From Terriglobia bacterium (lineage in GTDB: Bacteria > Acidobacteriota > Terriglobia > Acidiferrales > UBA7541), in NCBI GenBank assembly GCA_020072785.1, contig JAIQGG010000001.1, forward strand, positions 434,001 through 498,000: a stretch of DNA of 64,000 bases, written 5' to 3'. Each line of letters starts with the position of its first letter. Position 1 is the first letter of the stretch. The translations under genes were made by a program, and so were the position numbers. Positions 18,691 through 27,797 of this stretch are shown here, piece after piece. The notes below the pieces were generated by a model. The model was not told the origin of the DNA, did no database searches, and saw only the letters and a list, made by a program, of their open reading frames with translations.

Positions 18691-18697
18691 ACGCTTC

Positions 18698-18818
18698 TAA
18701 TTTGCAGGCCCGGGAAGCGGGGAAGGCCGTGCGATTCGGCCGCGGTCCCGCCACTGTGATCGGCCGGAAACGGCCGTAAGCCAGGCTACCCTCCCCAGCC
18801 CCATCGCCAGCCTACTTC
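18698..18818 (+). promoter_or_regulatory. Cobalamin riboswitch 1, upstream of btuFCD
   Basis: The conserved core of the B12 aptamer is easily read: GGGAAGCGGGGAAGG, the GCGGTCCCGCCACTGTGA B12-box region at about 18741-18758, and AAGCCAGGCTACC at about 18778-18790. Outer boundaries are approximate. An intrinsic terminator follows at 18844-18872, so ligand binding most likely causes premature termination of the btuF-btuC-btuD transcript. The class is well known to repress B12 transport genes when cobalamin is plentiful. Confidence 0.92.
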
Positions 18819-21917: not shown

Positions 21918-21965
21918 CGGCCACCCCAACCGGGCGCGTGGTTTTCGCCCAGCCAGATCCACCGT

Positions 21966-22170
21966 GGACCTCGCGCAAGGGAAGACGGGCAACCGCTGTG
22001 CGGTTGCACTCGCAAGAGAAGCCGTCGCCGCCGCGCGACTGTAAGGCGGATTCGAGTTTGCGTTGGTCACTGCGGCATCTCCCGCTCGGAGCGGGATGCC
22101 GTGGGAAGGCCGCGCGTTCCCGGGCCAATCGGGAAAGCAGTGCCGCCAAGCCAGGAAACCTGCGAGGTCC
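21966..22170 (+). promoter_or_regulatory. Cobalamin riboswitch 2 (expanded, divergent), upstream of btuB
   Basis: A 9-bp closing helix (GGACCTCGC at 21966-21974 with GCGAGGTCC at 22162-22170) encloses AAGGGAAG, GCGCGACTGTAA (22033-22044, where GCCACTGTNA is usual), GTGGGAAGG (22101-22109) and AAGCCAGGAAACCTGC (22148-22163). It is about 205 nt because of extra hairpins, including a perfect GCAACCGC/GCGGTTGC stem at 21989-22007 and a TCCCGCT/AGCGGGA stem near 22079-22096. No terminator follows; CACCTCC at about 22210 could pair with the GGAGGAG ribosome site at about 22233, suggesting translational control, which is inference. Confidence 0.82.
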
Positions 22171-22245
22171 GCAGCCCGCGCCTCCCTTACCGGAAGCGCC
22201 GGCCAGCCTTCACCTCCCGCGCGAGAGGGAGCGGAGGAGACAAAA

Positions 22246-24513
22246 ATGAAGAAAACGTATTTCCATTTGGTCCTGCTGGTTTCCCTGTTGGTGGTTCCGC
22301 AGATTCTTCCGGCGTCCAATCCGGCTCAGCTTTCCGGAGTGTTGACCGATCCCAGCGGCGCGGGCATTGCCGGCGTGCGCATCACCGCCGTCAGCGAGGG
22401 CGCTTCCCGTTCCGATACTTTTTCCGCGACATCCGCCGCGGCGGGAGAGTTTTCCCTGCGGCTGCCGCCGGGCCGCTATCGCGTGCGTTTTGAGAAGGAG
22501 CCATTCACGCCCCGCGAACAGATGCTGGAACTGGCCGCGGGAGAGAGCCGCACCCTCGCTCTGCGTTTCGAACTCGCGCGGCTCTCCTCGCAGGTCCTGG
22601 TTACCGCGCAGGCCGAGCCCGTGGAGGCTGCGGCTTCCCCGGCTCCCGCGGATTTCTTCACGCGCCAGGAGATTGCGCAGCGCGGCAGCGTCGCGCTCAC
22701 CGATCTCCTGCAGTTTCTCCCGGCCCTGAGCATCGGCCGCTCCGGAGCGGAGGGCGGACAAACGTCGGTCTTCACCGGCGGCGGCAATTCCAGCTACACC
22801 AAGGTGCTCGTGGACGGCACACCGGTAAACGAGCCCGGCAACGCCGTGGATTTTTCCAACTTCACGCTGGACAACGTGGACAAGGTGGAAGTGGTGCGGG
22901 GCGCGGAGAGCGCGCTTTATGGCACGGACGCCGTCGCCGGCGTGATCCAGGTGTTCACGCACCGGGGCACGACGCGTGTTCCGGAGGTGGCCCTGTTCGG
23001 CGAAGGCGGCGGCTTGGCCACCGGCCGCGGCGGCGCGCAGCTCAGCGGGCTCCTGGGCAAATTCGATTACTCCACGGCGGCTGCCTATTTTCAGACGGAC
23101 GGCCAGGGTGTAAACGATGCATTCCGCAACCGCACACTCTCCGGCAACTTCGGCTGGAGCTTCCGCGAAACCAACCAGCTGCGTCTCACCCTGCGCAACA
23201 ACACCAGCGACGCCGGCATTCCGGGGCAGACGCTCCTCGAGCCGCCCAACCTGGATCAGCACAGCGCCCTGCATTTCTTCAGCGCCGGCTTGCACTGGAA
23301 TCTCTCCAGCGGCAGGCACTGGCGCCACGAACTCCGCGCCGCCGAATCCTACAACCGCGAATTCATCGACAACCCGGGGCAGGATTTCTACAACCCCGGC
23401 GATCCCTACTGCCCGCAGGCTTCGCCCACGGCGGTGGTCTCCGCGTTCTGCGACTACACCTTCACCGCGCGCAATCAGTACAACCGCGCGGGTTTCGCCG
23501 CACAGTCCAGTTACACGCTGCCGAAGCTCGGCGTGACCGCCGGTTATCAATACGAGGTCGAGAACGCCTTTCTCAGCGCGCTCTCCGGGGCCCACGTCCG
23601 CCGCAACAATCAGGGCGGCTTCCTCGATGCGCGCTGGACGCCGCTTTCCCGCCTGACGCTCTCCGCCGGGCTGCGCGCTGAGGCCAACGCCAATTTCGGC
23701 ACTCGGGTCGTGCCGCGCGCCGGCGTTTCGCTCGCCCTGCGCTACGGCCAGGGCTTCTTCGGCGACACCCGCGTGCGCTTCTTCTACGGCCAGGGGGTCA
23801 AGGAGCCGCGTCTCGACCAGTCCTTCGGCAGCGATCCCTGTTATCCGGGCAACGCCGCGCTGCGTCCCGAACGCAGCCGCACGTGGAGCGCGGGCCTCGA
23901 GCAGAAGCTGGCTTCCGACCGCTTGAAGGTCTCCGCGGAATATTTCCAGAATCGCTTCTACGACATCGTCAGCTTCACCTTCTGCTACCCGGGCGGACCG
24001 TGTCCCGTGGCGCCCCCCAACGGTTGCGGCTTCGGCTTCGGCACGTTTTTCAACACCGACCTGGCGCGGGCCCGCGGCACCAACATCGCCGTGGAAGCCA
24101 AGCCCTTCTCCTGGCTCAGCATCGCCGGAAACTACTCCTACGACGACAGCCTGGTGCTGGCTTCGCCCAACGCCTACGACCCCGCGCAGCTTCCCGGAAA
24201 CCGTCTGATCCGCCGGCCGCCGCACTCCGGCTCGCTGATCCTGAACGCCGCCTTCCGCCGCATGAACTGGAATTTCGCCGGCTATTTCAGCGGCGCGCGC
24301 ACGGATAGCGACTTCCTCGGCCTGGGGCTGACGCGCAATCCGGGTTACGCGCGCTTCGATCTGGCCAGCAGCTACGATCTCGGACGCGGCCTCAAGCTCA
24401 CGGGCCGGGTCGCCAATCTGTTCGGGAAGCAGTATCAGGACGCGCTCGGCTACCCGGCGCTCGGCCGCGACTTCCGCCTGGGCATGAACTACCGCTTCGG
24501 CGGCAGGGAGTGA
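22246..24513 (+). CDS. btuB: TonB-dependent cobalamin receptor BtuB-like
   Basis: The protein has 755 residues, with an ATG at 22246 behind GGAGGAG. A signal peptide is followed by a carboxypeptidase-regulatory-like domain at about 27-110 (GVLTDPSGAGIAGVRITAVS). The plug at about 130-240 reads FFTRQEIAQRGSVALTDLLQ, VLVDGTPVNEP and VEVVRGAESALYGTDAVAGVI. The barrel carries RFDLASSYDLGRGLKLTG near its end. The last residues are RFGGRE rather than a terminal aromatic. The added N-terminal sandwich is common in acidobacterial and Bacteroidota receptors. The riboswitch identifies cobalamin as the likely substrate. Its stop overlaps the next gene (GTGA). Confidence 0.88.
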   Translation: MKKTYFHLVLLVSLLVVPQILPASNPAQLSGVLTDPSGAGIAGVRITAVSEGASRSDTFSATSAAAGEFSLRLPPGRYRVRFEKEPFTPREQMLELAAGESRTLALRFELARLSSQVLVTAQAEPVEAAASPAPADFFTRQEIAQRGSVALTDLLQFLPALSIGRSGAEGGQTSVFTGGGNSSYTKVLVDGTPVNEPGNAVDFSNFTLDNVDKVEVVRGAESALYGTDAVAGVIQVFTHRGTTRVPEVALFGEGGGLATGRGGAQLSGLLGKFDYSTAAAYFQTDGQGVNDAFRNRTLSGNFGWSFRETNQLRLTLRNNTSDAGIPGQTLLEPPNLDQHSALHFFSAGLHWNLSSGRHWRHELRAAESYNREFIDNPGQDFYNPGDPYCPQASPTAVVSAFCDYTFTARNQYNRAGFAAQSSYTLPKLGVTAGYQYEVENAFLSALSGAHVRRNNQGGFLDARWTPLSRLTLSAGLRAEANANFGTRVVPRAGVSLALRYGQGFFGDTRVRFFYGQGVKEPRLDQSFGSDPCYPGNAALRPERSRTWSAGLEQKLASDRLKVSAEYFQNRFYDIVSFTFCYPGGPCPVAPPNGCGFGFGTFFNTDLARARGTNIAVEAKPFSWLSIAGNYSYDDSLVLASPNAYDPAQLPGNRLIRRPPHSGSLILNAAFRRMNWNFAGYFSGARTDSDFLGLGLTRNPGYARFDLASSYDLGRGLKLTGRVANLFGKQYQDALGYPALGRDFRLGMNYRFGGRE

Positions 24514-25821: not shown

Positions 25822-27303
25822 ATGGCGAAAACGGCTTCCGAATCGGCACCCCTTGCGCCGGAGATTCTGGCGAAATACGAGCCCGTCATCGGGCTGGAAG
25901 TACACGTCCAGCTGCTCACGCGCACCAAGATCTTCTGCGGCTGCTCGACGCGCTTTGGCGCTCCGCCCAACACCAACGTCTGCCCCGTCTGCCTCGGCCT
26001 GCCCGGCACGCTCCCGGTGATGAACAAGCGGGCCCTGGAGATGGCCGTGCGCGCCTCGCTCGCGCTGCACTGCACCGTGCACGAGCATTCGCGCTTCGCC
26101 CGCAAAAACTATTTCTATCCCGACCTGCCCAAGGGCTACCAGATCTCCATGTACGAGATGCCCCTGGCCACCGGCGGCTGGCTGGAGATCGAACACGAGG
26201 GCGTGCGCAAACGCATCGGCATCACGCGCCTTCACCTGGAAGATGACGCCGCCAAGGCACTGCACGAAGGCTTCGGCGCTGCCGACAAGACCTACGTGGA
26301 CTACAACCGCGGCGGCACGCCGCTCGCCGAAATCGTTTCCGAGCCGGACATCCGCACGCCGGCCGAGGCCTACGCCTATCTCGTCACTCTCAAGCAGCTC
26401 ATGCTCTACACCGATACCAGCGACTGCAACATGGAGGAGGGTTCGCTGCGCTGCGACGCCAACGTCAGCGTGCGCCGGCGCGGCGCCGAGCGGTTCGGCA
26501 CCAAGGTCGAAGTGAAAAATCTGAACTCCTTCCGCTACCTGCAGAAGGCCCTGGAGCACGAGATCGAGCGGCACATCGCGGTGATCGAAGGCGGCGGAAC
26601 GATCGTGCAGGAGACCCGCCTGTGGAACCAGGCCGAGGGCCGCACCATCTCCATGCGCTCCAAGGAAAAGGCCCACGACTACCGCTACTTCCCGGAGCCC
26701 GACCTGCTCCCCCTGCACGTCAGCGCGGAGTGGCGCGAAGCCATCCACGCGGCCATGCCCGAGCTGCCGGACGCCAAGCGCGCGCGCTTCATCGCGCAGT
26801 ACGGCGTGACGCCCTACGACGCCGGCGTGCTCACGGAAACCCGCGCCCGCGCCGCCTATTTCGAAGAGGCCGCGTGCGCCGGGGCCCCCGGCAAGAGCGC
26901 CGCCAACTGGATGCAGACCGAGCTGCTGCGGCGCCTCAACGATTCCGGCAAGGAGATCGAAGCCAGCCCGCTCGCGCCCGCCGCCCTGGCCGAGCTCATC
27001 CAGCTCATCGAATCCGGGCAGATCACCGCCGCGGTGGGCAAGAAGGTGTTCGGAACGATGTTCGAATCGGGCCGCTCCGCGAAAGAGATCGTCGCCAGCG
27101 AGGGCCTGGCGCAGACCATCGACACCGGGGCTATCGAACAGGCCGCCCGCGAAGTGATCGAGAAAAACCCCGAGAACGTGGCGAAATACAAAGCCGGCAA
27201 CGAGGGCGTCTTCAAGTTTTTCGTGGGCCAGGTGATGCGCGCCACGCGCGGCCAGGCCAATCCCCAGCTCATCAACGACATTCTGAAGCGCCTGCTCTCC
27301 TGA
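25822..27303 (+). CDS. gatB: Aspartyl/glutamyl-tRNA amidotransferase subunit B
   Basis: The protein has 493 residues, full length for GatB. The signature segments are YEPVIGLEVHVQLLT, KIFCGCSTRFG, CPVCLGLPG and FARKNYFYPDLPKGYQIS, with the zinc Cys pairs CGC and CPVC, then YTDTSDCNMEEGSLRCDAN. The C-terminal YqeY-like helical tail runs from about 330 (TAAVGKKVFGTMFESG). It is the tRNA-binding kinase/transamidase subunit of GatCAB, converting Glu-tRNA(Gln) or Asp-tRNA(Asn). gatA and gatC are not in the window. The peroxiredoxin gene follows after 20 bp on the same strand. Confidence 0.96.
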   Translation: MAKTASESAPLAPEILAKYEPVIGLEVHVQLLTRTKIFCGCSTRFGAPPNTNVCPVCLGLPGTLPVMNKRALEMAVRASLALHCTVHEHSRFARKNYFYPDLPKGYQISMYEMPLATGGWLEIEHEGVRKRIGITRLHLEDDAAKALHEGFGAADKTYVDYNRGGTPLAEIVSEPDIRTPAEAYAYLVTLKQLMLYTDTSDCNMEEGSLRCDANVSVRRRGAERFGTKVEVKNLNSFRYLQKALEHEIERHIAVIEGGGTIVQETRLWNQAEGRTISMRSKEKAHDYRYFPEPDLLPLHVSAEWREAIHAAMPELPDAKRARFIAQYGVTPYDAGVLTETRARAAYFEEAACAGAPGKSAANWMQTELLRRLNDSGKEIEASPLAPAALAELIQLIESGQITAAVGKKVFGTMFESGRSAKEIVASEGLAQTIDTGAIEQAAREVIEKNPENVAKYKAGNEGVFKFFVGQVMRATRGQANPQLINDILKRLLS

Positions 27304-27323: not shown

Positions 27324-27797
27324 ATGGCCAAGAAAACGCTCAAGGAAGGCGACCCGGCCCCGGACATCCGGCTGAAAACCGACTCCGGCAACGAGGTCGC
27401 GCTTTCCGGCTACCGCGGCAAGCGTGTGGTCCTCTTCTTTTATCCCAAAGCCAACACTCCCGGTTGAATCATCGAAGCGTCCGAGTTTCGCGACGCCAAG
27501 AAAGAGTTCGACAAGCTGGGCGTGGTCCTCCTGGGAGCCAGCGGAGATTCGGTGAAGGCCCAGGCCAGCTTCAAGGCCAAGCAAAAGCTCAATTTCGACC
27601 TGCTGAGCGATCCGGAGTTCGCGGCCATCGAAGCCTTCGGCGCGCGCCGCATGAAGAAGTTTCTCGGCAAGTCCTTCCTGGGGATCGTCCGCAGCACCGT
27701 GCTCATCGGCCCCGACGGCACCATCGAAAAGATCTGGGACAGCGTCAGCGCCAAAGGCCACGCCGCCGAAGTCCTCGCCGAGATCAAAAAGAGGTAA
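27324..27797 (+). CDS. bcp: PrxQ/Bcp-type peroxiredoxin, probable selenoprotein (in-frame TGA = Sec48)
   Basis: The protein has 157 residues if TGA at 27465-27467 is read as selenocysteine. The ATG at 27324 has GAGGAG upstream. Residues 1-47 give the thioredoxin-fold start (GDPAPDIRL, VVLFFYPKANTPG), and the frame stays open after TGA: IIEASEFRDAKKEFDKLGVV to TAA at 27795-27797. The TGA falls exactly on the peroxidatic Cys of PxxxTxxC (here PKANTPG then TGA). The resolving Cys of alpha-type PrxQ, five residues on, is Ser53, and the whole protein contains no Cys. A SECIS-like hairpin follows the TGA. It should reduce hydroperoxides in the cytoplasm. The alternatives, a nonsense mutation or base-call error, are less likely. 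It is co-directional with gatB and ends at a strong terminator. Confidence 0.82.
27477..27496 (+). other. Bacterial SECIS-like stem-loop
   Basis: GCGTC (27477-27481) pairs with GACGC (27492-27496), then CGA (27482-27484) with TCG (27488-27490), with C27491 bulged and a GTT apical loop at 27485-27487. All eight pairs are Watson-Crick. The loop begins with G-U and lies 17 nt after the TGA, matching the bacterial SECIS rules (G early in a small loop, 16-37 nt from UGA). It is inside the coding frame, as in fdhF. Confidence 0.65.

Follow-up and report, generated by a model that had tools for sequence, protein, structure and literature searches.

The window, a 64,000-nucleotide stretch of DNA from a soil acidobacterium related to Candidatus Acidoferrales, carries directly downstream of gatB a gene for a PrxQ/Bcp-type peroxiredoxin with one in-frame TGA (Table 1). 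Its frame starts at an ATG (27324) preceded by a ribosome-binding-like GAGGAG motif, 20 nt past the gatB stop, and closes with a TAA at 27797, the TGA at codon 48 of 158 being the single interruption. With TGA read as selenocysteine (U), the product (MAKKTLKEGDPAP...YPKANTPGUIIEASEFRD...) has 157 residues, zero Cys and Ser at residue 53. The first-pass annotation had proposed both that a PrxQ/Bcp frame is broken solely by this TGA, at the peroxidatic Cys, and that the protein is Cys-free with Ser53 at the resolving position, and the translation agrees with it on both points. No other PrxQ match was found in the source genome at E 1e-20. Because gatB itself ends in TGA, this codon is an ordinary stop in the organism. 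The close coupling to gatB suggested earlier is also borne out: next to the short gap, the adjacency is conserved in the order, with gatB directly upstream of PrxQ at 29 of 29 loci with 1.5-kb flanks. No gatB match was seen beside the more distant PrxQ homologues examined, and a functional link between PrxQ and gatB is not implied. Farther upstream, two cobalamin riboswitches lie on the + strand of the window (18695-18811 and 21954-22181); the second is closely followed by a TonB-receptor-like ORF, which ends at 24513.

Table 1 Coordinates of the features at the PrxQ locus, numbered from the first nucleotide of the window
Feature	Position	Strand	Basis or remark
gatB, adjoining upstream gene, normal TGA stop	25822..27303	+	Adjacency conserved among order homologues
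Predicted Sec-containing PrxQ/Bcp peroxiredoxin gene	27324..27797	+	157 residues, U48; TGA=U translation, Pfam/NCBIfam, AlphaFold model
In-frame TGA, predicted selenocysteine 48, peroxidatic Cys site of PxxxTxxC	27465..27467	+	Homologue column is TGA/TGC/TGT
Predicted bacterial SECIS element, GCGTC-CGA-(GTT loop)-TCG-bulged Y-GACGC	27477..27496	+	Fold, frozen synonymous sites, pair counts
Codon 53 (TCC, Ser), within the SECIS stem	27480..27482	+	Usual PrxQ resolving-Cys position

Sequence and modelled structure place the product in the Bcp/PrxQ group, which we take to be COG1225. It matches AhpC-TSA/Redoxin in Pfam and, with Cys substituted for Sec, scores 145.8 bits against the 140-bit cut-off of the Bcp equivalog PRK09437 (NCBIfam). 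An AlphaFold model, also with Cys for Sec, reached a mean pLDDT of 95.5, and its best PDB matches were the Bcp chain 9a4d_B (TM-score 0.94) and bacterial PrxQ structures, among them Xanthomonas PrxQ 5iiz (0.87). In this model, U48 sits at the start of helix 46-57 and Ser53 takes the usual place of the resolving Cys in the same helix. Across 38 aligned sequences, T45, column 48 and R123 are invariant and P41 is conserved in at least 90%, and both the PxxxTxxC(U) motif and the active-site Arg typical of Bcp/PrxQ are present. A resolving Cys is absent from the whole 157-residue chain; such a residue occurs in 2-Cys PrxQ and not in 1-Cys members, and membership does not need one.

The first-pass annotation had proposed checking homologues for Cys or TGA at the peroxidatic column, and this is what an order-wide search spanning 95 genomes returned: codon 48 is TGA in 58 genes from 58 separate genomes and TGC/TGT in 23, with no other alternative, many of the relatives compared being metagenome-assembled genomes. 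The two closest relatives (93% and 88% identical) both carry TGA, as do at least 12 homologues outside the order within the phylum, where position 53 of the TGA forms is sometimes Ser, Arg or Cys. Since so many genomes inside and outside the order share the codon, the TGA is neither chance nor the artefact of a single assembly.

Starting 10 nt behind the TGA, the RNA is predicted to fold into a hairpin (GCGUC-CGA-GUU-UCG-Y-GACGC, -9.8 kcal/mol) whose apical G, in a GUU loop, lies 18 nt after the TGA. The bacterial SECIS rule, as given in PMC1088965, calls for a hairpin shortly behind the TGA with a G in a small apical loop, and the PrxQ gene has both. Its shuffle z-score was -2.6 for a 29-nt stretch versus a non-significant 0.16 for 56 nt with more flank, a loss that we counted against the Sec reading. 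An RNAalifold consensus of the gapless codon alignment gave just a short weak stem, and codon-level constraint and counts of named pairs are more telling than this consensus. The strongest evidence pointing to a SECIS element is codon choice: among the 58 TGA genes, Ala52 is GCG (57/57), Ser53 is TCC (53/53), Glu54 is GAG (57/57), Phe55 is TTT (57/58) and Asp57 is GAC (58/58), whereas the Cys-form genes vary in codon choice at Ala52, Glu54, Phe55 and Asp57. In TGA genes, the mean normalised synonymous entropy is 0.23 at codons 51-58 versus 0.70 in the rest, and in Cys genes 0.70 versus 0.67; such constraint, seen in the TGA genes and absent from the Cys genes, is the signature of a bacterial SECIS element. 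When stem pairing was scored as the best of two registers, a stem with all eight pairs was obtained for 59 of 71 TGA genes and for none of the 57 Cys genes; 70 of the 71 TGA genes have the GTT loop. Because the stem hardly varies, two-sided changes are confined to its top pair, where a compensatory change from A-U to G-C was found in nine distinct sequences. Furthermore, Arg56 is CGG rather than CGY in Thr53 genes (ACC), and the stem of distant Cys53 genes (TGC) restores its pairing by a shift of the bulge; both changes look compensatory and fall partly at synonymous sites. These distant Sec PrxQ genes thus retain the hairpin, in a shifted register, despite Cys53, and we abandoned the idea that the SECIS element rules out Cys at this codon.

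The selenoprotein reading had been tied to a search of the genome for selA, selB, selC and selD, and would have failed had selB or tRNA-Sec been missing. All four are present in the source genome (3.73 Mb, 98.9% complete): SelA (451 bits), SelB (356 bits, cut-off 242), SelD (349 bits, with one in-frame TGA of its own) and two tRNA-Sec genes with a UCA anticodon (66.2 and 60.9 bits). SelD (G000:C1:111200-112165, locus L018) is likely a selenoprotein itself because a stable predicted hairpin follows its in-frame TGA. The tRNA-Sec pair (G000:C2:1112064-1112158 and 1115713-1115807, locus L133) is 3.65 kb apart and 88% alike across a duplicated segment of 153 bp, part of which is upstream sequence, and the second copy scores lower. 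The two genes flank a large, repetitive ORF which, read by eye, we take to be of Ig-like/beta-propeller type; one relative (G410) also carries two tRNA-Sec genes, 259 bp apart. SelA was found in 56 of the 58 genomes with a TGA-form PrxQ, the remaining two being incomplete (85% and 79%). Counting against the Sec reading, tRNA-Sec was not found in two nearly complete genomes with a TGA-form PrxQ and SelA (G451 and G460). In genus g222, all five genomes with a PrxQ match have Cys forms, and four of the five are without SelA and a high-scoring tRNA-Sec; other Cys-form genomes retain the Sec machinery, and Sec/Cys switching is thus not merely a consequence of its loss.

It might be argued that a suppressor or a reassigned code makes the TGA encode Cys, Trp or Ser, since tRNA-Sec is initially charged with Ser and since allo-tRNAs, non-canonical serine-type tRNAs, are reported in Acidobacteria (PMC7609411). 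This is very unlikely, however, considering that the TGA stop of adjacent gatB points to a standard code, that both UCA tRNAs score as tRNA-Sec, that the selA/selB/selD set is complete, and that the context hairpin is conserved. Taken from the genomes, Sec decoding of TGA codon 48 is strongly supported.

Between the source genome and five relatives, dN/dS was 0.05-0.18 behind the TGA (codons 49-155) and similar before it (0.09-0.24, codons 5-47), and the low values behind the TGA therefore indicate that the downstream part is translated. A single base separates TGC/TGT from TGA, which speaks for a pseudogene or an assembly error, with a Cys codon mutated or misread, but this is scarcely credible when the TGA is kept in 58 genomes of the order, purifying selection acts downstream of it and the SECIS constraint is confined to TGA genes. 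Termination at the TGA with a separate 91-aa protein from GTG 27522 has a vanishingly small chance, for although such an ORF exists in the ORF list, it would start inside the conserved Prx fold with the active site missing, and the codons on both sides of the TGA are similarly constrained. We are highly confident in a functional selenoprotein gene, in which the hairpin would direct Sec48 into a Cys-free PrxQ/Bcp reduced by an external thiol. The protein is very probably a 1-Sec PrxQ, and the first-pass annotation, which had thought a 1-Sec peroxiredoxin likely, is supported by the Sec machinery, the conserved TGA, the SECIS-like hairpin in TGA genes only and the lack of Cys; because the chain is without any Cys, this reading is right at the sequence level.

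In this selenoprotein, the hairpin behind the TGA would direct SelB and Sec-tRNA(UCA) to decode codon 48, and the PrxQ/Bcp chain would be made in full length, Cys-free and with Sec in the peroxidatic position. Sec48 would then attack the peroxide and turn into a selenenic acid, to be reduced by an external thiol; the candidates are thioredoxin/bacilliredoxin and low-molecular thiols, for instance bacillithiol. As a chain with no Cys would form no intramolecular bond, the oxidised Sec would have to be reduced from outside. BshC of bacillithiol synthesis is present in the source genome (436 bits) and no GshB match was found there, which makes a bacillithiol or thioredoxin-like partner seem likelier than glutathione; judged by gene presence, bacillithiol and thioredoxin are candidate reductants.

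Less expected is how the residue at the resolving position goes along with Sec or Cys at residue 48. In a quick maximum-likelihood PrxQ tree, from which columns 46-58 were left out and in which many forks are weakly resolved, the order's PrxQ grouped into a single set of 80 rows; of these, 56 of the 57 Sec forms and none of the 23 Cys forms have Ser/Thr at position 53. Parsimony gave six changes of Ser/Thr at this position and six Sec/Cys switches, or seven with a doubtful TGA form in G475 (locus L224), which is nested among Cys forms, has Ile53 and is without a SECIS element. The latter may be an error, a recent stop or decaying gene, or a fresh Cys-to-Sec change, and was counted against the Sec reading. 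An independent-pairs test of Sec versus residue 53 had 3 usable pairs only and no power, and given this and the weakly resolved forks, the coupling is a pattern, not a proven correlation. Another genome (G470, locus L181) carries one PrxQ of each form, Sec and Cys, as tandem genes separated by ~130 bp, an arrangement that may represent an intermediate stage of a Sec/Cys switch. Tentatively, and with the odds rather against it, one orthologous peroxidase might repeatedly switch throughout the order between (nearly) Cys-free 1-Sec forms with Ser/Thr53 and Cys forms that never have Ser/Thr53, the Sec form acting as a selenoperoxidase that depends on bacillithiol and would be a bacterial equivalent of glutathione peroxidase.

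These results add a well-supported order-wide selenoprotein for a group of soil bacteria represented here largely by metagenome assemblies; in these, gene calling with the standard code would cut the PrxQ product at the TGA. Moreover, the 58 Sec and 23 Cys orthologues offer a natural experiment on Sec/Cys exchange, in which the SECIS element is lost and the resolving position changes too, and could test whether Sec makes the resolving Cys dispensable. A literature search for PrxQ with selenocysteine found nothing relevant, and no description of the Cys-free form and the order-wide Sec-Ser/Thr53 pairing was found in an incompletely covered literature, which leaves their novelty unproven. In comparison with PrxU, likewise a Sec peroxiredoxin, the acidobacterial protein scores 40 bits against the 270-bit cut-off of NF040737, taken from its name to be the PrxU family of Eubacterium acidaminophilum, and so belongs to a different peroxiredoxin subfamily. 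PrxU is the Sec peroxiredoxin of that species as cited in PMC13188914. With Bcp/PrxQ proteins such as E. coli Bcp and Xanthomonas PrxQ (5iiz), the acidobacterial protein shares the PRK09437 sequence family and the fold, but it has Sec for the peroxidatic Cys and no resolving Cys. Sec peroxiredoxins of COG1225 were the second most abundant previously known selenoprotein family in the Sargasso Sea set (PMC1088965), Sec peroxiredoxins with a TxxU motif are listed in later surveys (PMC1794560, PMC13188914), and selenoproteins are recorded in Acidobacteria (PMC1794560). As Sec peroxiredoxins of COG1225 have been known since 2005, the acidobacterial gene is a further example of an already known selenoprotein type. 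It shares with the TxxU set the Prx fold, the PxxxTxxU motif, widespread Cys homologues and a bacterial SECIS element directly behind the TGA, and differs in its occurrence among relatives of Candidatus Acidoferrales, its Cys-free chain and a nearly fixed Ser/Thr53, features that we state of the acidobacterial clade alone.
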